Made by a program: the position numbers and the translations under genes. From positions 1 through 14,890 of the forward strand of contig SHMQ01000044.1 in NCBI GenBank assembly GCA_008534395.1: DNA of 14,890 nt, written 5' to 3'. The notes under the pieces are model-generated. The model saw only the letters and a program-made list of their open reading frames with translations. It was not told where the DNA came from and ran no database searches. Shown one piece after another: positions 5,633-14,890 of the stretch. This DNA is from Candidatus Acidulodesulfobacterium acidiphilum. GTDB taxonomy: Bacteria > SZUA-79 > Acidulodesulfobacterales > Acidulodesulfobacteraceae. Positions within the stretch are counted from its first letter, which is position 1; each line of letters opens with the position of its first letter.

Positions 5633-6508
5633 TTATAAATATATGCCTCCGCCAATGCCATTAAACTCTTCGGCTTTTAATCTTACTTTTTCTTTTATGA
5701 ATGAAGCGAAGTCCAAAATTCCTTTATCTATTACTTCCGGCCTGACGGTATTGTCCGTATCTCCAGAGACGCGAACCGAACCGCCGTGCGCGTTTATCTT
5801 TCTTTTGCAGGATGTTTCAAAAATTACAAGTTCTTTATTTATAGACAGAGCGTTTTCTTTTATTTTTGAAACATCCGAGTCGAGAACCGGAAGCAGGTCT
5901 GTTTTATTTATTATCATAACTTTTGATTTATAAAAAGCCGCCGGATATTTTAACGGCTTATCGTCGCCTTCGGTTACCGAAAGCACGACCGCTTTCATAT
6001 CTTCCCCTAGATTGTAAGAAGTAGGACATACTAAATTGCCCACGTTTTCTATAAAAATTACGTCCGCATCGTTTATGTTTAAATTATTTAAAGACGTATT
6101 CACCATATTTGCGTCTAAATGGCACGTTCCGTTTGTAATAATTTGATATGACGGTATATTTAAAGCGTTAATCCGCCTTTTATCTAAATCAGTTTCTACG
6201 TCGCCTTCTATAACTGCGATATTTAAGCCTTCGGATTTTAAAACCGGCACTACAGATTCCAGCAAAGAAGTCTTTCCCGACCCAGGCGAACTTAAAAAAT
6301 TCATAACAAAAGCTTTCCCGAATAACGCTTTATTTTTTCCGGCGATAACTTCATTCGATTCTAAAGCGTTCAGCCTTACCGTTAAGGACCTTCCACCCGT
6401 TCCCGTTCTGCCTAAATGTTTGCCGCCGCCGCTTCCAAACGCTCCTATGCCCGTGCCTGCGCCGCCTCTGCCTGAGCTTCCGCGGTTAATACCGTTAGAG
6501 TTCGGCAT
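5633..6508 (-). CDS. hypB: Hydrogenase nickel incorporation GTPase HypB
   Basis: HypB is the G3E-type GTPase that, with HypA, inserts nickel into the immature hydrogenase large subunit. Visible motifs: P-loop SSPGSGKTSLLES (73-85), switch-like EGDVETDLDKRRI (101-113), the nickel/zinc site NGTCHLD (Cys129, His130) with Cys161 in GNLVCPTSY at the expected 32-residue spacing, and the guanine-specificity motif NKTD (201-204). The N-terminus is odd: residues 1-42 are Gly/Ser-rich with a single His, lacking both the CxxCGC high-affinity nickel motif of E. coli HypB and the His-rich stretch of others. A further insert (about 236-262) precedes the C-terminal helix. TAAGGAGG just upstream supports ATG 6508. 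It follows hypA by 32 bases in a two-gene unit. Confidence 0.95.
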   Translation of the reverse strand: MPNSNGINRGSSGRGGAGTGIGAFGSGGGKHLGRTGTGGRSLTVRLNALESNEVIAGKNKALFGKAFVMNFLSSPGSGKTSLLESVVPVLKSEGLNIAVIEGDVETDLDKRRINALNIPSYQIITNGTCHLDANMVNTSLNNLNINDADVIFIENVGNLVCPTSYNLGEDMKAVVLSVTEGDDKPLKYPAAFYKSKVMIINKTDLLPVLDSDVSKIKENALSINKELVIFETSCKRKINAHGGSVRVSGDTDNTVRPEVIDKGILDFASFIKEKVRLKAEEFNGIGGGIYL

Positions 6509-6540: not shown

Positions 6541-6780
6541 TCAATCTACTATAATTTCTTCTATTTTAATTTCATCGGAATCGTTTGAAATAAACTCCAG
6601 CGAAACCTCTTTAAATCTTTCGTCGTTGATATTTTGAAACGCAAAAGACAGATAATTTTTGTCTATTCCCGAATATCTGCCTATAATAAGTTTAATCGAA
6701 TCTACTTTCTTTACGCCCTTTAAATATCCGTTGTCTTCAAGCGTGTCAAGTATTTCGAGGGCTACGGAAATTTCATGCAT
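6541..6780 (-). CDS. hypA: HypA-like nickel chaperone lacking the zinc domain
   Basis: HypA delivers nickel with HypB during [NiFe]-hydrogenase maturation. The nickel-binding N-terminus is intact (MHEISVALEIL, with His2 and Glu3), as is the following alpha/beta core (VDSIKLIIGRYSGIDKNYLSFAF, residues 26-48). Normal HypA has about 113-120 residues and carries a zinc-binding domain with two CxxC pairs after the strand equivalent to VSLEFI. Here the protein has 79 residues and no cysteine at all: LEFI runs within a few residues into SDEIKIEEIIVD, which looks like the normal C-terminal strand (GDELxIxxIEV). The zinc domain therefore seems cleanly deleted rather than lost by frameshift, and the downstream bases encode no Cys pairs. 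No ribosome binding site is visible. It is divergent from the hydrogenase operon. Confidence 0.85.
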   Translation of the reverse strand: MHEISVALEILDTLEDNGYLKGVKKVDSIKLIIGRYSGIDKNYLSFAFQNINDERFKEVSLEFISNDSDEIKIEEIIVD

Positions 6781-6969: not shown

Positions 6970-8262
6970 ATGGCAAACGATAACCGTTCCAATTCTAACG
7001 GAAATAATTCCGACCCGGATTTTAAATGGGATCCTCTAAGATTTATATCAAAAAAACCCGATGAAGTTTTAAAAAAAGTAGATGACAGATTAGATGTGCT
7101 GGAAAAAGAATACTTCAGCGATAAAAAAGATAAAGAAGAAAATCTTCCCAATATTTTAGAAATTTACGGCGTTTCAAGAAGAGATTTCCTTAAATGGACC
7201 GCTTTTTTAACCTCCGCTTTAATGCTTCCTTATATATTCGAACCGAGAGTAGCAAGAGCCGCAAATATTCTAACAAGAACGCCTTTTATATGGCTTGATA
7301 TGGCAGACTGTATGGGAAATACCGAAGGCTTTCTAAGAACCGCCCACCCTACGCCGGCTGAAATTATACTTAATTACGTCAGCGTAAACTATATGGAATC
7401 TATAATGGCTCCCGCCGGCTATCAGGCTGAAACAAGAAGAACGGAGACGGTTAAAAAATATAAAGGTAAATATATACTTGTAGTCGAAGGCGCTATACCT
7501 ACCGGAATGGACGGGAAATTCCTTACCATCGGGGCAAAAGGAGATACAGGCTTAAAAATAACCAAGGAAACCGCAAAACATGCCGGAGTTATAATCGCAG
7601 TAGGAAACTGCGCCGCTTACGGCGGAATACCCGCTGCCAATCCAAATCCGACGTCGGCAGTAGGCTTAAGTTCCGTTACTAATAGAAGCGTTATAAACAT
7701 ACCAGCTTGTCCAGCAAATCCGGTAAATCTAGTAGGCACTCTCGTTGAATATATATTAATTGGAAAAGCGCCGCAGTTGGACAGCCTCGGCCGTCCGTTA
7801 TGGGCTTATTCCGGCAGGCTCCACGACAACTGTTACAGAAGGGGTCATTTTGAAGCCGGCGAATACGTCAGGCAATGGGGCGACGACGGAGCCAAAAAAC
7901 AATACTGTCTGTATATGATGGGTTGTAAAGGTCCTTTCACGTGGAACAACTGTACTACCGCCGAATATAATCAGGATATCAGTTTTCCCATGAGAGCGGG
8001 TCACGGATGTATAGGATGTTCGCAGCCTGCATTCTGGGACAGAATGACGCCGTTCGAGAAGCCTAATGCTGACGCAAAAATTATAATCCCGGGCATAGAA
8101 GCGACCGCAGACGAATTCGGAGTGGGATTGTTTGCGGCGGCAGGCGCCGGAATTGCCGCACATGCCATATATACCGGAGTTAAAAAGAAAAAAGAGCATA
8201 AAAAATCTAAAAACGAAAAAAACGACGATTCCGGAAAAAATGACGATAATAAGAAGGAATAA
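6970..8262 (+). CDS. hyaA: [NiFe]-hydrogenase small subunit, Tat-exported, with altered proximal cluster motif
   Basis: This 430-residue electron-transfer subunit of a periplasm-facing membrane-bound uptake hydrogenase carries three Fe-S clusters. The Tat signal is SRRDFLKWTAF (69-79) plus a hydrophobic stretch ending at VARA97. It is preceded by an unusual 68-residue charged region, and AGGAGG at 6960-6965 confirms ATG 6970. Cluster ligands seen: distal His285, Cys288, Cys313, Cys319; medial Cys328, Cys347, Cys350; proximal Cys114, Cys214, Cys247. The fourth proximal ligand is missing: the usual CxxC reads CMGN (Cys114, Asn117, codon AAT). No extra cysteines of the oxygen-tolerant six-Cys type are present (Gly116, Gly219). 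A C-terminal helix (GVGLFAAAGAGIAAHAIYTG, 384-403) anchors it near cytochrome b, followed by a Lys-rich tail. It is the first gene of hyaABCD. Confidence 0.95.
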   Translation: MANDNRSNSNGNNSDPDFKWDPLRFISKKPDEVLKKVDDRLDVLEKEYFSDKKDKEENLPNILEIYGVSRRDFLKWTAFLTSALMLPYIFEPRVARAANILTRTPFIWLDMADCMGNTEGFLRTAHPTPAEIILNYVSVNYMESIMAPAGYQAETRRTETVKKYKGKYILVVEGAIPTGMDGKFLTIGAKGDTGLKITKETAKHAGVIIAVGNCAAYGGIPAANPNPTSAVGLSSVTNRSVINIPACPANPVNLVGTLVEYILIGKAPQLDSLGRPLWAYSGRLHDNCYRRGHFEAGEYVRQWGDDGAKKQYCLYMMGCKGPFTWNNCTTAEYNQDISFPMRAGHGCIGCSQPAFWDRMTPFEKPNADAKIIIPGIEATADEFGVGLFAAAGAGIAAHAIYTGVKKKKEHKKSKNEKNDDSGKNDDNKKE

Positions 8263-8343: not shown

Positions 8344-10029
8344 ATGGCAACAAAAATCATAGTCGATCCCGTGACTAGAATAGAAGGACATCTCAGAATA
8401 GAAGCTATTCTTAACGGCAATGAAATAAGCGAAGCATACTCTTCCAGCACTCTTTTTAGAGGCATAGAACTTATACTTAACGGAAGGGCTCCGGAAGATG
8501 CGGGTCTTTTTGCTCAGAGAATCTGCGGAGTATGCACTTATGCTCATTACGAAGCCGCAACATGGGCGGTAGAAAACGCTTTGGGAATACATCCGCCAAA
8601 AAACGCCAGAATTGCAAGAAATATACTTAAAGGCGCCCAGATGGTGCAGGACCACTTAGTCCATTTTTATCAGCTTGCCGGATTAGACTGGGTAGATATA
8701 GTATCTGCGCTTCAAGCCGACCCTAAAAAAACCATGGATTTAGCTTATGCTTACACCAAAACGCCTTATAATGCAAGTCTGGCAAGATTCGAAGAAGTAA
8801 AGTCTAGGCTTGGCGCTTTCGTTAAATCCGGACAGTTAGGGCCTTTTGCAGGTGGTTACTGGGACAATCCTTCTTATAAACTACCGCCGGAAGGCAATCT
8901 TTTAATAGCATCGCATTATTTAGACAATCTTAATATTTTAAGGATACCCGCTCAGATTATAGCTATTCTCGGCGCTAAAGACCCGCATCCTCAAACCTGC
9001 GTAGTAGGCGGAATATCTTCTATAGCCGATATTATCAACCCGCAAAGAATGGACGACATACTGTTCAGGATAGGAAAAATTACCGACTTCGTTAATAACG
9101 CCTATATTCCGGATTTATTGACGGCGGCACAGTTTTATAAAGAAGAAGCTATTCAGGGAATAGGCGGCGGACTAAAAAATTATCTTTCTTACGGCGCCTT
9201 TCCGCAAACGGATGACGAAAATCCGGACGATTATTTTTTGATGAGAGGAGTAATTTTCGACAGAGATTTAAGCAAGGTTCACAAGTTGGACGAGAAAAAG
9301 ATAACGGAATTCGTAACGCATTCATGGTATAAATATCCGAACGAAAAAATAGGACTTAATCCTAACGTAGGAATAACAGACCCCGATTATACGGGATTAA
9401 ACAAAGACGGAAGCCTGAAAGAAGATGAAAAATACAGCTGGATTAAATCGCCGCGCTATGAAAATAAGGCTATGGAAGTAGGTCCGCTCGCAAGAACGTT
9501 AGTAGCATACGCAAAAGGCAATAAAACGATAAAATCTTTGGTGGACTACGTTTTAAAAACATCGGGCTTGCCTGTAACCGCGCTCTTTTCTACGCTTGGA
9601 AGAACGGCGGCAAGAGGTATAGAAGCTAAATACGTCGCCGACGCATTGGAATCATGGACTTTAGAACTGATTAAAAACGCCGCCGTCGACCAGACAAGCT
9701 GGACAAAATACGATATGCCGTCGAAAGAGATTATAGGCATAGGTTTAGACGAAGCTCCGAGGGGTTCGCTCGGACACTGGGTAAGAATAAAAGACAAACA
9801 GATAACCCACTACCAGATAGTCGTCCCTACTACATGGAATGCATCTCCAAGAGATGCATTTAATAATCCCGGAGCATATGAAGCGTCGTTAGTAGGCGTA
9901 AAACTTGCAAACGTATCGCAGCCGTTAGAAATTTTGCGTACGGTTCACTCTTTCGACCCATGCCTTGCGTGCGCGGTGCATTTAATAGACCCAAGAACAA
10001 ACGAAATAAAAAAATATAAAATTTGTTGA
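8344..10029 (+). CDS. hyaB: [NiFe]-hydrogenase large (catalytic) subunit
   Basis: This catalytic subunit holds the NiFe(CN)2CO centre that splits H2. Start: VDPVTRIEGHLRIEA (7-21). The L1 motif RICGVCTYAH (59-68) gives Cys61 and Cys64, and the L2 motif DPCLACAVH (538-546) gives Cys540 and Cys543, so all four nickel/iron cysteines are present. The 15 residues after His546 (LIDPRTNEIKKYKIC) are the C-terminal extension that the HyaD-type endopeptidase removes after nickel insertion. At 561 residues it is of normal group 1 length. GGAGGA at 8335-8340 precedes ATG 8344. It lies 81 bases after the small-subunit gene. It has no signal peptide and should travel through Tat with the small subunit. 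The sequence is of the membrane-bound respiratory uptake type; the exact subgroup is undecided. Confidence 0.97.
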   Translation: MATKIIVDPVTRIEGHLRIEAILNGNEISEAYSSSTLFRGIELILNGRAPEDAGLFAQRICGVCTYAHYEAATWAVENALGIHPPKNARIARNILKGAQMVQDHLVHFYQLAGLDWVDIVSALQADPKKTMDLAYAYTKTPYNASLARFEEVKSRLGAFVKSGQLGPFAGGYWDNPSYKLPPEGNLLIASHYLDNLNILRIPAQIIAILGAKDPHPQTCVVGGISSIADIINPQRMDDILFRIGKITDFVNNAYIPDLLTAAQFYKEEAIQGIGGGLKNYLSYGAFPQTDDENPDDYFLMRGVIFDRDLSKVHKLDEKKITEFVTHSWYKYPNEKIGLNPNVGITDPDYTGLNKDGSLKEDEKYSWIKSPRYENKAMEVGPLARTLVAYAKGNKTIKSLVDYVLKTSGLPVTALFSTLGRTAARGIEAKYVADALESWTLELIKNAAVDQTSWTKYDMPSKEIIGIGLDEAPRGSLGHWVRIKDKQITHYQIVVPTTWNASPRDAFNNPGAYEASLVGVKLANVSQPLEILRTVHSFDPCLACAVHLIDPRTNEIKKYKIC

Positions 10030-10066
10030 CCAGATTATTTAATTAACTTTTAAAATGGGGTTAATT

Positions 10067-10840
10067 ATGCAAAATAAAAATAGTAAATACGGCGAAATTC
10101 AGTTAGTTCACAGAATGACGGTTATAAAAAGAATTATACACTGGTCTTTCTTTGCGGCGATTATTAACAATATTATTACAGGATTTTATATAGCTTATCC
10201 TTTCTTAATATTCGGAAAAACTCCGACGCAGGCAGATTCGCTTTCTACCGGCGTTTTAAACTCCGGCGAAACTTATCAGGCGTTTATAATGACTTGGATG
10301 AGGGAATTTCACTTTATAGGAGCGGTAATAATAGACGTTATTTTTTTCGTCTGGCTTTATCTGGCTTTCTTTTCATGGAAAGAGCCGCTATATAAAAGTT
10401 TTATTCCTTTCGGCGATAAATTGGAAGAAGCATGGAGAATGCTGAAGCACTACTTCACGCTTAAAGACAGGCCGAAAACCGGCAGGTATCAAGACCCTCT
10501 TAATGCAATAATATTCACGTTATTTCATCTGCTTATACTTCTTCAGATGCTTACCGGATTTCAAATGTACGTGGCTTCTTTTACCGGAACTTCGGCTGTA
10601 GGCGCTTGGTGGCCGTGGCTTCTGCATTTTTCTACCGACTGGACGCTCGTAGTATTCGGGGGATTAACAGGCGTTACCCTCGTGCATCTTTTTATAATGT
10701 GGCTCATTATAATATTTATAGCTTATCATGTTTATATCGAAGTATGGCGTTCGATAATGTGGAAAGAGGGCGATATTCTTATACCCTTCGGAGGCTATAA
10801 ATATATGAGAAATAAATCTGAATCCGAGTCCGATATATGA
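10067..10840 (+). CDS. hyaC: Hydrogenase cytochrome b subunit (HyaC-like)
   Basis: This 257-residue integral membrane di-heme cytochrome b accepts electrons from the small subunit and passes them to quinone. It has about four main hydrophobic segments. Candidate heme ligands are His25 (RIIHW), His82 (EFHF), His154 (LFHLL), His207 (LVHLF) and His221 (AYHVYIEVWRS), matching the HyaC/HupC pattern of one His in helix 1, one in helix 2 and two in the last helix. I chose ATG 10067 because GGGG lies 6 bases before it; ATG 10055, 12 bases upstream in frame, would give 261 residues but has no ribosome binding site. The gene starts 37 bases after the large subunit, and its stop overlaps the start of hyaD by four bases (ATGA). 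Confidence 0.92.
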   Translation: MQNKNSKYGEIQLVHRMTVIKRIIHWSFFAAIINNIITGFYIAYPFLIFGKTPTQADSLSTGVLNSGETYQAFIMTWMREFHFIGAVIIDVIFFVWLYLAFFSWKEPLYKSFIPFGDKLEEAWRMLKHYFTLKDRPKTGRYQDPLNAIIFTLFHLLILLQMLTGFQMYVASFTGTSAVGAWWPWLLHFSTDWTLVVFGGLTGVTLVHLFIMWLIIIFIAYHVYIEVWRSIMWKEGDILIPFGGYKYMRNKSESESDI

Positions 10841-11328
10841 CGGGAATTATAGGAATAGGCAATCTGATATTAAAAGACGAAGGAATAGGGGTTCATTTTA
10901 TAAATTTATTAAGAAAAAAATATATCTTTGAGGGCAATATAAGGTTAATAGACGGAAGCACTCTCGGATACGGGCTTTTGGACGACATATTCAGCCTCGA
11001 CTATATCATAGCGGTAGATGCCGTTAAAACGGACGAAAAACCAGGAAGTATATTTAAGTTCGATTCGGATAATCTTCCCGTAAATTTAATGAAGAAAACT
11101 GCGCACGACGTAGAATTTATCGACGTAATTTCAATGTGCGGACTGCAGGGGCATAATCCTAAAATAACGTTTTTTGCAATATCTCCTGAGGACTGCACCG
11201 GCGTAGGAACCGATATTTCGGAACCGCTAAAAAAAGCCATGCCCGCTCTAGAAAAATTAGTTTTGGACGAAATAAAACCGCTCGGCATAAACTGGAAAAT
11301 AAACACGGAATACGCCGCTGAGATTTAA
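10837..11328 (+). CDS. hyaD: Hydrogenase maturation endopeptidase (HyaD/HupD type)
   Basis: This nickel-dependent protease removes the 15-residue C-terminal extension from the large subunit once the active site is loaded. The family motif GIGNLILKDEGIGVH opens the protein (6-20), and the three metal ligands of HybD-type proteases have counterparts: Glu15, Asp61 (AVDAV) and His90 (AHDVEF). At 163 residues it has the usual length. Translation is coupled to the cytochrome b gene by a 4-base ATGA overlap. It is the last gene of the operon, and 20 bases separate it from the end of convergent hypF. Confidence 0.95.
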   Translation: MTGIIGIGNLILKDEGIGVHFINLLRKKYIFEGNIRLIDGSTLGYGLLDDIFSLDYIIAVDAVKTDEKPGSIFKFDSDNLPVNLMKKTAHDVEFIDVISMCGLQGHNPKITFFAISPEDCTGVGTDISEPLKKAMPALEKLVLDEIKPLGINWKINTEYAAEI

Positions 11329-11348: not shown

Positions 11349-14153
11349 TTATATAATCCCGCCGTAAACCGCCTGACCTAATGCAATACCTCCGTCGTTA
11401 GAAGGTATTTTTTCGTTAAAATAAACGTTAAAACCGTTATTTTTAAGAATAAGAGCCGCTTTATTCCTAAGCGAAGCATTCTGGAACACTCCCCCGCTCA
11501 TACAAACGTTTTTACATCGTGACTTTAACGCCGCATCCAGTATAATCATAGCAAGAGTATTTATAAACCTCTCCGCTATAAAACCGGCTTTATACAGCTT
11601 ATCTTTGACTTTATTTTTGTCTTTGTTTTTATTTTTATCTTTATCGTCGTTGTTATTCTTGGTTTGAACTATATCGATAATATCGCTGAACATAGGATAA
11701 TAATCGACCGTAAAAAAATCCTCTTTTTCCTCGTTTTTCTCATTGCGCTTATTATAATTATCATGCTTATTATCATAGCGTATTTCATATTTAAAACAGT
11801 CTTTTTTAGTTATTAAATTAGCTTTAGTAATTGAATTAGCCTGCTCTCCTGCGCTTTTGCTTTTGCTTTCGTACTCAAGACATAAATTTTCTAAATAAAC
11901 GGCCGCCTCTCCTTCGTATGTTATATCTCCTTTGAAACCGCACAAGCATGAAACGGCGTCGAAAATTCTTCCGCATGAAGATGTAAATGGGGAATTTAAT
12001 CCGTTTTCCCTCATTTTATGAAATATACTTATTTCTTTTTCGGAAAAACCGGTTAAACTTGAAATATTTTTAAAAATATCCGGCGATTTAAATATACATT
12101 TCGATTTAGATTTAATATAGATATCGCTATAATTATCGTCATTATATTTACCGGCTTTTTTGTCCTCGTTATGCAAAATAGCGGCGATATTTTCCTTTTC
12201 CGATAAAATGCCGAACAGAATTTCTGCAAGAACCCTTCCCGGCGATTTAACCGCTTTATCCCCTCCGATAAGCCTGAATTTTTCAAAACTGCCTATTCTT
12301 TTTAAATTATCATATTTCCCTTTAAAGAATTCTCCGCCCCATATAGTCCCGTCGTCTCCGTAGCCAGTTCCGTCGAAAGCGATGCCGAAAACTTCTTCGT
12401 TTAACCCAAGACCGTTTTCAGCCATACATGAGATAACGTGCGCTCTGTGATGCTGGAGAGATATGCCTTTAATATTTTTTTCCTTTGCATATTCTTTAGC
12501 CCATTTAGTATTTTCGTAATCGGGATGACTATCGTAAACGACTGCTTCCGGTTTAAAGTCGTAAAATTTTTCAAAATCTTCTATGTTATTTTTGAAATTA
12601 GCAAACCCGGCGGCACTGTCCAAGTCGCCGTTGTGCTGACTTAATACTATCGCGCCTGCATCTTCTCCGGCGTAAGCTAAGGCAAAAACGTTTTTAAGAA
12701 ACGCTCCCGACGCCAAAACGTTTCTTTTTAAATTAAAAGGGAGATTTAACGGTTCGGGAACATAGCCTCTTGAGCGCCTTATAAAAAAATAAGAAGCAGT
12801 TTTATTATGATTTTCATATTGATTTTTATCTGCATCCGTGCCGTAATTATGCGCATTATTCAAATTATATTCGTTGACCGCATTGACCTTTATAACGGAA
12901 TCGTCGCATCTCCTCAAAATATCCCTGTTATGGATTAAAAAACCGTCCGCAATGTTTTTCAACTTTAAAAACGCCTCTTCATTCTCCTTTACTATCGGTT
13001 CTCCGCCGATGTTTGCCGAAGTAGCGACTAAAGGCCCGTCTAAAAAAGCGAAAATAACATAGTGAAGCGGCGCATAAGGCAAAAAAACGCCGATATCTTT
13101 AAGTCCGCAGTTTACGTAATAAGAAAGTCCGCCTCTGTCTTTCAATAAGCATATAGGTCTTTCCTTAGAGTTCAATAAATCTGCGGAAATACCGTCTATG
13201 TATGCATATTCCGACGCCTGTCCGATGTCCTTAAACATTACGGCGAAAGGTTTTTTAGGCCTGTTCTTGCGCTCCCTTAATAATCTCAAGGCGTCGTCGT
13301 TTGCGGCATCCGCCATTAAATGGAAACCGCCTATTCCTTTAACGCAGACGATACCGCCTTCTTTAATTAAATTCACTAACGATTTTACGGCGTTTGAACT
13401 TTTTAAACGGTTTGATTTTAAAACCTCGGCTATATCTTGCGTCCTTTCCTCAATGCCGCTTAAACTATGTGTATAATTATCTATTTTCGATATATCCGAA
13501 CTCAAAATAAATTCTACTTCGGGACCGCAGGCGAAACATCCGTTAGGTTCTGCATGAAACCTTCTGTCTAAAGGATTTTTATATTCTGTTTGGCATTCCG
13601 GACACATCGTAAATTTATACATAGACGTAGAAGCCCTGTCGTACGGCAGTTCTTTAGATATGGTAAATCTTGGGCCGCAGTCCGTGCAGTTAATAAACGG
13701 ATATAAATATCTTCTGTCGGAAGGATTTAAAAGCTCGTTTAAGCATTTGCCGCATATTGCTATATCGGGAGGTATCGTTAAATTTAATTTATCAACGGCA
13801 TGGGCGGTTTTATCCGATTCTTTAATTTCAAACGTTTTATAAAAAAAATGCTCTTGTTCGATAAAATCGATATAATCTACTATTTTATCTTTTATTAATG
13901 CAAGAGGAGGTTTTTCCGAATCTGAATCTAAAGAATTTATAAAGTTATGAAGAGCGTTTTCGTCGCCTTCTGCTGAAATTTCGACGCCTTCGTCGTTATT
14001 TAAAACATAGCCTTTTATTCCGTATTTTTCCGCAAGCCTGTAAACGAAAGGTCTGAACCCTACTCCCTGAACCCTGCCCGACAGTCTAATCTTTGCTCTT
14101 TTTATTACGGCATTGACGGCATTATTATTATCATCGCAATTTTTATTATTCAT
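11349..14153 (-). CDS. hypF: Carbamoyltransferase HypF, enlarged by low-complexity inserts
   Basis: HypF uses carbamoyl phosphate and ATP to load a carbamoyl group on the C-terminal Cys of HypE, the first step in making the CN ligands. Domains in order: acylphosphatase (about 20-110, SGRVQGVGFRPFVYR), zinc-finger region with four CxxC pairs at 134/137, 156/159, 184/187 and 206/209 in the exact spacing 18-24-18, YrdC-like domain (about 255-465, with KPFAVM, ATSANIGGEP, RRSRGYVP), and Kae1-like domain (480-934, with QHHRAH 567-572, FDGTGYGDDGTIWGGE, MSGGVFQN, SNDGGIALGQ). At 934 residues it is well above the usual 750 or so. The excess lies in Asn/Lys/Asp-rich inserts near 423-453, 660-690, 760-810 and 830-853. 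It lies downstream of hypE in the same direction, with 95 bases between. No ribosome binding site stands at the normal distance. Confidence 0.96.
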   Translation of the reverse strand: MNNKNCDDNNNAVNAVIKRAKIRLSGRVQGVGFRPFVYRLAEKYGIKGYVLNNDEGVEISAEGDENALHNFINSLDSDSEKPPLALIKDKIVDYIDFIEQEHFFYKTFEIKESDKTAHAVDKLNLTIPPDIAICGKCLNELLNPSDRRYLYPFINCTDCGPRFTISKELPYDRASTSMYKFTMCPECQTEYKNPLDRRFHAEPNGCFACGPEVEFILSSDISKIDNYTHSLSGIEERTQDIAEVLKSNRLKSSNAVKSLVNLIKEGGIVCVKGIGGFHLMADAANDDALRLLRERKNRPKKPFAVMFKDIGQASEYAYIDGISADLLNSKERPICLLKDRGGLSYYVNCGLKDIGVFLPYAPLHYVIFAFLDGPLVATSANIGGEPIVKENEEAFLKLKNIADGFLIHNRDILRRCDDSVIKVNAVNEYNLNNAHNYGTDADKNQYENHNKTASYFFIRRSRGYVPEPLNLPFNLKRNVLASGAFLKNVFALAYAGEDAGAIVLSQHNGDLDSAAGFANFKNNIEDFEKFYDFKPEAVVYDSHPDYENTKWAKEYAKEKNIKGISLQHHRAHVISCMAENGLGLNEEVFGIAFDGTGYGDDGTIWGGEFFKGKYDNLKRIGSFEKFRLIGGDKAVKSPGRVLAEILFGILSEKENIAAILHNEDKKAGKYNDDNYSDIYIKSKSKCIFKSPDIFKNISSLTGFSEKEISIFHKMRENGLNSPFTSSCGRIFDAVSCLCGFKGDITYEGEAAVYLENLCLEYESKSKSAGEQANSITKANLITKKDCFKYEIRYDNKHDNYNKRNEKNEEKEDFFTVDYYPMFSDIIDIVQTKNNNDDKDKNKNKDKNKVKDKLYKAGFIAERFINTLAMIILDAALKSRCKNVCMSGGVFQNASLRNKAALILKNNGFNVYFNEKIPSNDGGIALGQAVYGGII

Positions 14154-14180
14154 AGGATTAACGTTTATCGAAGAATCCTT

Positions 14181-14236
14181 TTTTAGCTCTGCTTAGTTTT
14201 TCTTAGTTCTGTTTAGTTTTGCTTAGTTCTGCTTAG
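14181..14236. repeat. Tandem repeat with 10-bp period between hypE and hypF
   Basis: Six units of consensus GCTTAGTTYT follow one another, with the core TTAG at 14183, 14193, 14203, 14213, 14223 and 14233, exactly 10 bases apart. Flanking bases vary (some T for G or C). Read on the minus strand, the coding direction of hypE and hypF, the core is CTAA, so TAA stops occur in all three frames. The array fills more than half of the 95-base intercistronic gap. Confidence 0.85.
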
Positions 14237-14248
14237 CGGAAACTTTTT

Positions 14249-14890
14249 TCAGCATATTCTCGGCAAAAGTTCTCCGGAAGGATAGTCGAGTATCCTTTCC
14301 ACTCCGTATATTCCTTTTAAAATAACTTTTCCGGAAGAATTATTTCGTCCTCCGTCCGCACTTTTTCTTCTTATCCTTGAAACAGCAGTTCCAATTATAT
14401 TTGCATTTTTACCAAGCGGATGAGACCTGAGGATGCCAAGAGTTTTCTCCGCGAATTCAGGTTTTACCGCAAATACCGCCCTGCCTTCGCATGCAAGCTG
14501 GTAAGGTTCAAAACCGAGCAGTTCACAAAAACCTTTTACCGGAGGGCTTACCGGAATTTTATCTTCTTCGGCGTAAATATCGATATCCGCCGCCATAGCC
14601 CATTCGTTAAGGACAGCGGCTAATCCGCCCCTCGTTGCGTCTCTTACGGCTTTCACCTTTATACCGCCGCTTAAAACGGCATTTATCATACCCCACAAGG
14701 AAGCGCAGTCGCTTTCAATTTCAACGTCCATTTCTATCCCTTCCCTCTGCGACATAATCGCAGCGCCGTGGTCGCCTACATTACCCGAAACTATAATTAT
14801 ATCCCCTTCTTCTATGTTATAGACCGAAATGCCGCCGTATAAAATCTCCCCTATTCCGCTCGTGTTTATAAAAATTCCGTCCGCTTTTCC
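14249..14890 (-). CDS. hypE: HypE, hydrogenase cyanide-ligand synthesis protein (N-terminal part outside window)
   Basis: HypE dehydrates the thiocarboxamide that HypF places on its C-terminal cysteine to a thiocyanate, the source of the active-site CN ligands. The frame is open to the window edge; an internal Met at 14755 is not the start, since the 45 upstream codons include the conserved GDIIIVSGNVGDHGAAIMSQREG. Further family signs are SDCASLW, VRDATRGGLAAVLNEWA, FEPYQLACEGRAVF, and the C-terminus LLPRIC, whose last residue is the required Cys. The 214 residues seen are about two thirds of the normal length of roughly 335; the N-terminal ATP-binding part is missing only because the window ends. 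It precedes hypF, and hypC/hypD may lie further to the right. Confidence 0.95.
   Translation of the reverse strand, partial: GKADGIFINTSGIGEILYGGISVYNIEEGDIIIVSGNVGDHGAAIMSQREGIEMDVEIESDCASLWGMINAVLSGGIKVKAVRDATRGGLAAVLNEWAMAADIDIYAEEDKIPVSPPVKGFCELLGFEPYQLACEGRAVFAVKPEFAEKTLGILRSHPLGKNANIIGTAVSRIRRKSADGGRNNSSGKVILKGIYGVERILDYPSGELLPRIC

Follow-up and report, generated by a model that had tools for sequence, protein, structure and literature searches.

The hydrogenase small subunit encoded in the window, which is a complete contig of 14,890 bases, carries asparagine (Asn117) in place of the canonical second cysteine of the proximal iron-sulfur cluster. The CMGN motif to which this residue belongs is conserved throughout the family of the enzyme, and no other cysteine replaces the missing one. 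We regard it as highly probable that this is a respiratory uptake enzyme of group 1b type in an acidophilic sulfur bacterium, with a site-differentiated proximal cluster held by three cysteines and with Asn117 as a weak ligand or none at all. Loss of this cysteine has been recorded before as a trait of a known hydrogenase class, to which the window enzyme adds a further member.

Results

The hydrogenase operon

The genome containing the window has a size of 2.09 Mb and is rated 100% complete. The operon is ordered as small subunit, large subunit, b-type cytochrome and maturation protease, with hypA, hypB, hypF and hypE on the flanks. The features are as follows.

5633–6508, minus strand: HypB with a Gly-rich N-terminus (TIGR00073)
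6541–6780, minus strand: HypA-like protein of 79 aa, without cysteines (zinc domain missing)
6970–8262, plus strand: hydrogenase small subunit gene, 430 aa, group 1b-like (TIGR00391, PF14720, PF01058, tree)
7174–7194, plus strand: Tat motif SRRDFLK, residues 69–75
8344–10029, plus strand: hydrogenase large subunit (PF00374, alignment)
10055–10840, plus strand: hydrogenase b-type cytochrome with four hydrophobic segments (PF01292, TIGR02125)
10837–11328, plus strand: hydrogenase maturation endopeptidase of the HyaD/HybD family (TIGR00072, TIGR00140)
11349–14153, minus strand: HypF (TIGR00143)
14249–14890, minus strand: HypE, truncated by the contig end, with the frame open to the edge (TIGR02124)

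The small subunit was identified as a group 1 protein by the TIGR00391/HydA profile (402 bits, cut-off 179.5), by the domains PF01058 (Oxidored_q6) and PF14720 (SSU C-terminal), and by the SRRDFLK motif. In the large subunit the active-site motifs RICGVC and DPCLAC were intact and the PHP histidine was conserved. The b-type cytochrome scored above the cut-off of PF01292 and, with 112.9 bits, under that of TIGR02125 (121.5). Judged from the sequence, the enzyme is probably functional. A TIGR00391-type search of the genome (100% complete) gave no second group 1 small subunit, and one further PF00374 match was located on another contig.

Several features of the accessory genes were also recorded. 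In the hypA product, the MHE start and final strand of canonical HypA are retained, while its four-Cys zinc domain is missing. The same 79-aa form was present in the same-family relatives examined (L002–L022, L031–L049), with one cysteine in some of them, and a PF01155 profile search of the genome matched the window HypA alone, partially (profile positions 1–64 of 112). This conserved HypA without zinc domain may be a more unusual feature than the proximal motif. In HypB, a Gly/Ser-rich N-terminal extension, variable in length among relatives, replaces the His-rich or CxxCGC metal-binding N-terminus. Short imperfect tandem repeats were found at two places: in hypF (11599–11657), where they form a low-complexity insertion rich in Asn, Asp and Lys, and in the gap between hypE and hypF (14179–14236), which holds a short array of 10/20-base units (TTAGTTCTGC).

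The CMGN motif and its conservation

The codons TGT ATG GGA AAT were confirmed at 7309–7320 and encode residues 114–117, as read in the preliminary description. In the alignment to solved hydrogenases (MADCMGNTEGF against GLECTGCSESF), Asn117 falls without a gap on the second Cys of CxxC. The positions concerned, all on the small subunit gene, are listed below.

7309–7320, plus strand: CMGN, consisting of Cys114 (proximal ligand 1), Met115, Gly116 and Asn117 at the position of proximal ligand 2
7318–7320, plus strand: AAT, Asn117, in place of the canonical second proximal cysteine (alignment)
7609–7611, plus strand: Cys214, proximal cluster ligand (alignment)
7708–7710, plus strand: Cys247, proximal cluster ligand (alignment)
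7714–7716, plus strand: Ala249, second-sphere position two residues past Cys247 (association, phylogeny not controlled)
7822–7926, plus strand: distal cluster ligands His285, Cys288, Cys313 and Cys319 (alignment)
7951–8019, plus strand: medial cluster ligands Cys328, Cys347 and Cys350 (alignment)

The ten remaining ligands had been described as present, and all of them (Cys114, Cys214 and Cys247; His285, Cys288, Cys313 and Cys319; Cys328, Cys347 and Cys350) were found by alignment. The small subunit has exactly nine cysteines, at residues 114, 214, 247, 288, 313, 319, 328, 347 and 350. Since each of them is already a ligand, none is spare for the fourth proximal site. A nearby cysteine filling position 117 had been named as a possible refutation; the alignment and the cysteine count, which is also nine in the family cores, ruled this out. 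An AlphaFold model of the small subunit, built with 18 sequences, had a mean pLDDT of 46 and was too poor for cluster geometry.

Conservation was analyzed in a same-family set made up of the window sequence and homologues from 21 further genomes. CMGN was present in all 22 distinct sequences of this set (Ca. Acidulodesulfobacterales/SZUA-79-like MAGs), each with nine core cysteines; the named relatives come from acid-mine and acid-sediment MAGs and include Candidatus Acididesulfobacter diazotrophicus and isolate SZUA-79, so that the host is probably a bacterium like the Ca. Acidulodesulfobacterales. The motif is conserved far beyond chance. Because separate genomes gave CMGN 22 times out of 22, a base-calling error at 7318–7320 was rejected, and a sequencing or assembly error there has a negligible probability. 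The claimed site of three cysteines plus Asn is supported by both alignment and conservation.

Among 210 distinct aligned small subunits, CxxN was found in 134, CxxC in 57, CxxD in 13 and DxxC in 2, a census biased to window-like sequences because the search patterns included WLDMADCM. A fairer, profile-based sample from other families (70 rows with letters) contained 50 CxxC, 11 CxxD, 7 CxxN and 2 DxxC, so that one motif cysteine or the other was missing from more than a quarter of its rows. CAGN was general among the uptake hydrogenases of Sulfurimonas, Sulfurovum, Arcobacteraceae, Helicobacteraceae, Hippea and Persephonella, and some of these CAGN-bearing genomes (Campylobacterota, Hippea, Persephonella) encode a second hydrogenase with CNGN. 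The opposite change, DxGC, in which the first proximal Cys is replaced by Asp and the second retained, was observed in two small subunits (L160 and L172); a change of this type has been recorded for Methanosarcina barkeri (PMC4070099).

Residues around the proximal site were compared between motif classes. Pro occupied position 249 in 40 of the 57 CxxC enzymes but in none of the 134 CxxN or 13 CxxD enzymes, an association in which kinship is ignored. At position 113, 34 of the 57 CxxC rows had Glu, whereas 93 of the 134 CxxN rows had Asp. No significance is attached to the covariation at 249 and 113, because only two independent pairs control for descent; a second-sphere change at residue 249 may go with the loss of the cysteine.

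Phylogenetic placement

A group 1 tree was constructed from 53 sequences after removal of the four motif columns, with support given as bootstrap/SH-aLRT. The window family and the CxGN enzymes of Campylobacterota, Hippea and Persephonella (Aquificota) formed one clade of 14 rows with moderate support (88/87), which was nested in a clade of 22 rows (100/98) whose remaining members have CTGC. Within the CxGN clade, the window family is a separate deep branch with a length of 0.71. A second group 1 clade contained a mixture of CxGN, CxGD and one CxGC, and CxGN was also found in group 2a-type enzymes. The AU test rejected trees that unite all CxGN rows of group 1 in one clade (p about 1e-8), and likewise those that unite the CxGN plus CxGD rows (p about 7e-5). 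In the wider tree, no fewer than five changes on well-supported branches are needed to account for CxGN. Monophyly of the motif, proposed earlier as a check, therefore stood in part: the supported clade includes the window enzyme and is consistent with one origin, but CxGN also arose or was lost elsewhere.

The N-region ahead of the Tat motif has 68 residues (6970–7173), which is long for a Tat signal. A pre-Tat region of about 60 residues or more is common to the window family and the Campylobacterota group 1b-type enzymes, and this supports the group 1b-type placement. Clustering with Campylobacterota, the three-Cys motif with Asn and a cytochrome b partner gene in the operon were likewise as in group 1b. 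The assignment is based on the tree and on literature statements about relatives, not on the HydDB classifier: HydDB places Arcobacter in group 1b (PMC5037454), and in work on a group 1b enzyme, Wolinella, Helicobacter, Campylobacter and Sulfurospirillum are given as its characterised relatives (PMC10080006). Other classes fitted less well. Group 1d ([4Fe-3S], six proximal Cys) differs by the Gly at 116 and 219 of the window enzyme. Group 1h has Asp at position 117 and no Tat signal, whereas the window enzyme has Asn117 and a Tat motif. The group 2a type is distinguished by the presence of His285 and the Tat motif in the window enzyme, and long branches separate the Huc-type sequences.

Discussion

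The implied novelty of the substitution is not borne out: it was already published in 2014 and 2016. Yonemoto and colleagues tabulated Cys-to-Asn at proximal position 2 in Nostoc punctiforme and Cys-to-Asp in Geobacter, and the C81N change in Alteromonas HynS kept activity (PMC4070099). Mohammadi and colleagues reported that Asn replaces one proximal Cys out of four in enzymes of acidophilic Methylacidimicrobium that are closely related to group 1b, and stated that no more than three cysteines are available in groups 1b, 1f and 1g (PMC5364354). For a group 1b-type enzyme, a Tat signal, a membrane anchor and a cytochrome b alongside CxGN are normal.

In the working that we propose, Cys114, Cys214 and Cys247 would hold the proximal cluster, with Asn117 at its fourth corner. 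H2 would be oxidised at the Ni-Fe site and the electrons would enter this three-Cys cluster, from which they would pass to the medial [3Fe-4S] cluster, the distal His/Cys3 cluster, cytochrome b and quinone. The proximal cluster could be a [4Fe-4S] in which one iron is bound by Asn or water, and loss of this iron would give [3Fe-4S]. We infer such a site-differentiated cluster with a losable iron because CxGN has been assigned [3Fe-4S] in Huc and [4Fe-4S] in HupS; given these precedents, the [3Fe-4S] cluster and the non-Cys fourth ligand considered in the preliminary description were the right candidates. The literature searched yielded neither spectroscopy nor a structure for the proximal cluster of a group 1b enzyme. 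For the state in the cell, we would give [4Fe-4S] about half of the weight, a permanent [3Fe-4S] most of the rest, and other states a small remainder.

A stable [4Fe-4S] with 3Cys/1Asn or 3Cys/water ligation, electronically near the canonical cluster, would be the 4Fe half of the explanation proposed here, and the chances for it are even. The carboxamide is a poor iron ligand, which counts against stable Asn ligation. The proximal cluster of Nostoc HupS is given in reviews as a [4Fe-4S] ligated by three Cys and one Asn (PMC6616624, PMC4463661), and the group 1h cluster, in which Asp replaces the Cys of this position, is closely analogous in its chemistry (PMC5364354, PMC6813726). The interchange of CxGN and CxGD in the second group 1 clade suggests similar roles of the two residues. 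Against this, Huc has the same motif and a [3Fe-4S].

A permanent, Huc-like [3Fe-4S], in which Asn117 lines a vacant corner, would have a higher potential and a bias to H2 oxidation at the cost of overpotential. The 3Fe couple in general lies about 250 mV above the 4Fe couple. This possibility falls somewhat short of an even chance. HucS of Mycobacterium has the identical CxGN motif at the same place (CSGN at the position of CMGN by alignment), a Cys for the fourth iron is lacking, and the proximal cluster of Huc was shown to be [3Fe-4S] by high-resolution cryo-EM and EPR (PMC10017518). However, Nostoc HupS also has Asn here and is reported as [4Fe-4S], Huc-type sequences have Gln for the distal His, and Huc was examined as isolated in air. 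The wider claim that group 1b-type hydrogenases, including that of the window, carry a true proximal [3Fe-4S] in a Tat-exported, cytochrome b-linked respiratory enzyme is marginally more doubtful still; if true, the Huc-type electron relay would extend to a large class of H2 oxidisers that live as anaerobes or microaerophiles.

That the substitution confers oxygen tolerance on the window enzyme, as had been suggested, is improbable. Group 1h (3Cys/1Asp) and Huc (CxGN) are indeed oxygen-insensitive. Tolerance does not follow from this, because group 1b enzymes are described as oxygen-sensitive (PMC6813726, PMC10080006), Gly116 and Gly219 stand where [4Fe-3S] enzymes have their extra Cys, and the insensitivity of Huc is mainly ascribed to narrow gas channels (PMC10017518).

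A fourth ligand from Met115 (thioether) or from Asp113 or Glu119 is very unlikely: Met115 occurs in 22 of 22 family sequences and in no other aligned row, and Asp113 is more frequent with CxxN (93/134) than with CxxC (5/57, mostly Glu), but elsewhere residue 115 is usually Thr, Ala, Asn or Asp and gives no hint of acting as a ligand, and Glu119 is common in enzymes with four Cys as well (39/57 CxxC).

Group 1b-type enzymes power H2 respiration in Campylobacterota, among them lineages of the gut and of vents, as well as in these acid-mine sulfur bacteria. Should the first electron acceptor of these enzymes be something other than a standard four-cysteine [4Fe-4S], their catalytic bias and overpotential would be unlike those of textbook enzymes. 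The working of CxGN, a motif assigned both [3Fe-4S] and [4Fe-4S], thus bears on a large part of hydrogenase diversity.

Comparison with known hydrogenases

The closest likeness is to group 1b (Wolinella HydABC, Helicobacter, Campylobacterota), which shares CxGN, the remaining ligands, the long N-region, the C-terminal region and the cytochrome b partner at about 45–51% identity, up to 54–55%; the window enzyme differs in having CMGN rather than CAGN and a diverged N-region sequence. Methylacidimicrobium HupS (PMC5364354) is likewise a group 1b-like enzyme of an acidophile with Asn for one proximal Cys, a likeness by published description only, and its host is a verrucomicrobial methanotroph. 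Nostoc punctiforme HupSL has the same Cys-to-Asn change at proximal position 2, whereas its distal His is replaced by Gln, it lies on the cytoplasmic side and its cluster is the reported 3Cys/1Asn [4Fe-4S]. Huc of Mycobacterium smegmatis (group 2a; PDB 7uur, 7utd) has CSGN at the same place, but its relatives in the alignment carry distal Gln for His and start at the hydrogenase core with no Tat region, and Huc itself is a high-affinity, oxygen-insensitive oligomer far from the window enzyme in the tree. Group 1h (Cupriavidus HofK; actinobacterial type) is altered at the same position and keeps three Cys, while it has Asp there (CDGD), is without a Tat signal and is very distant in the tree.
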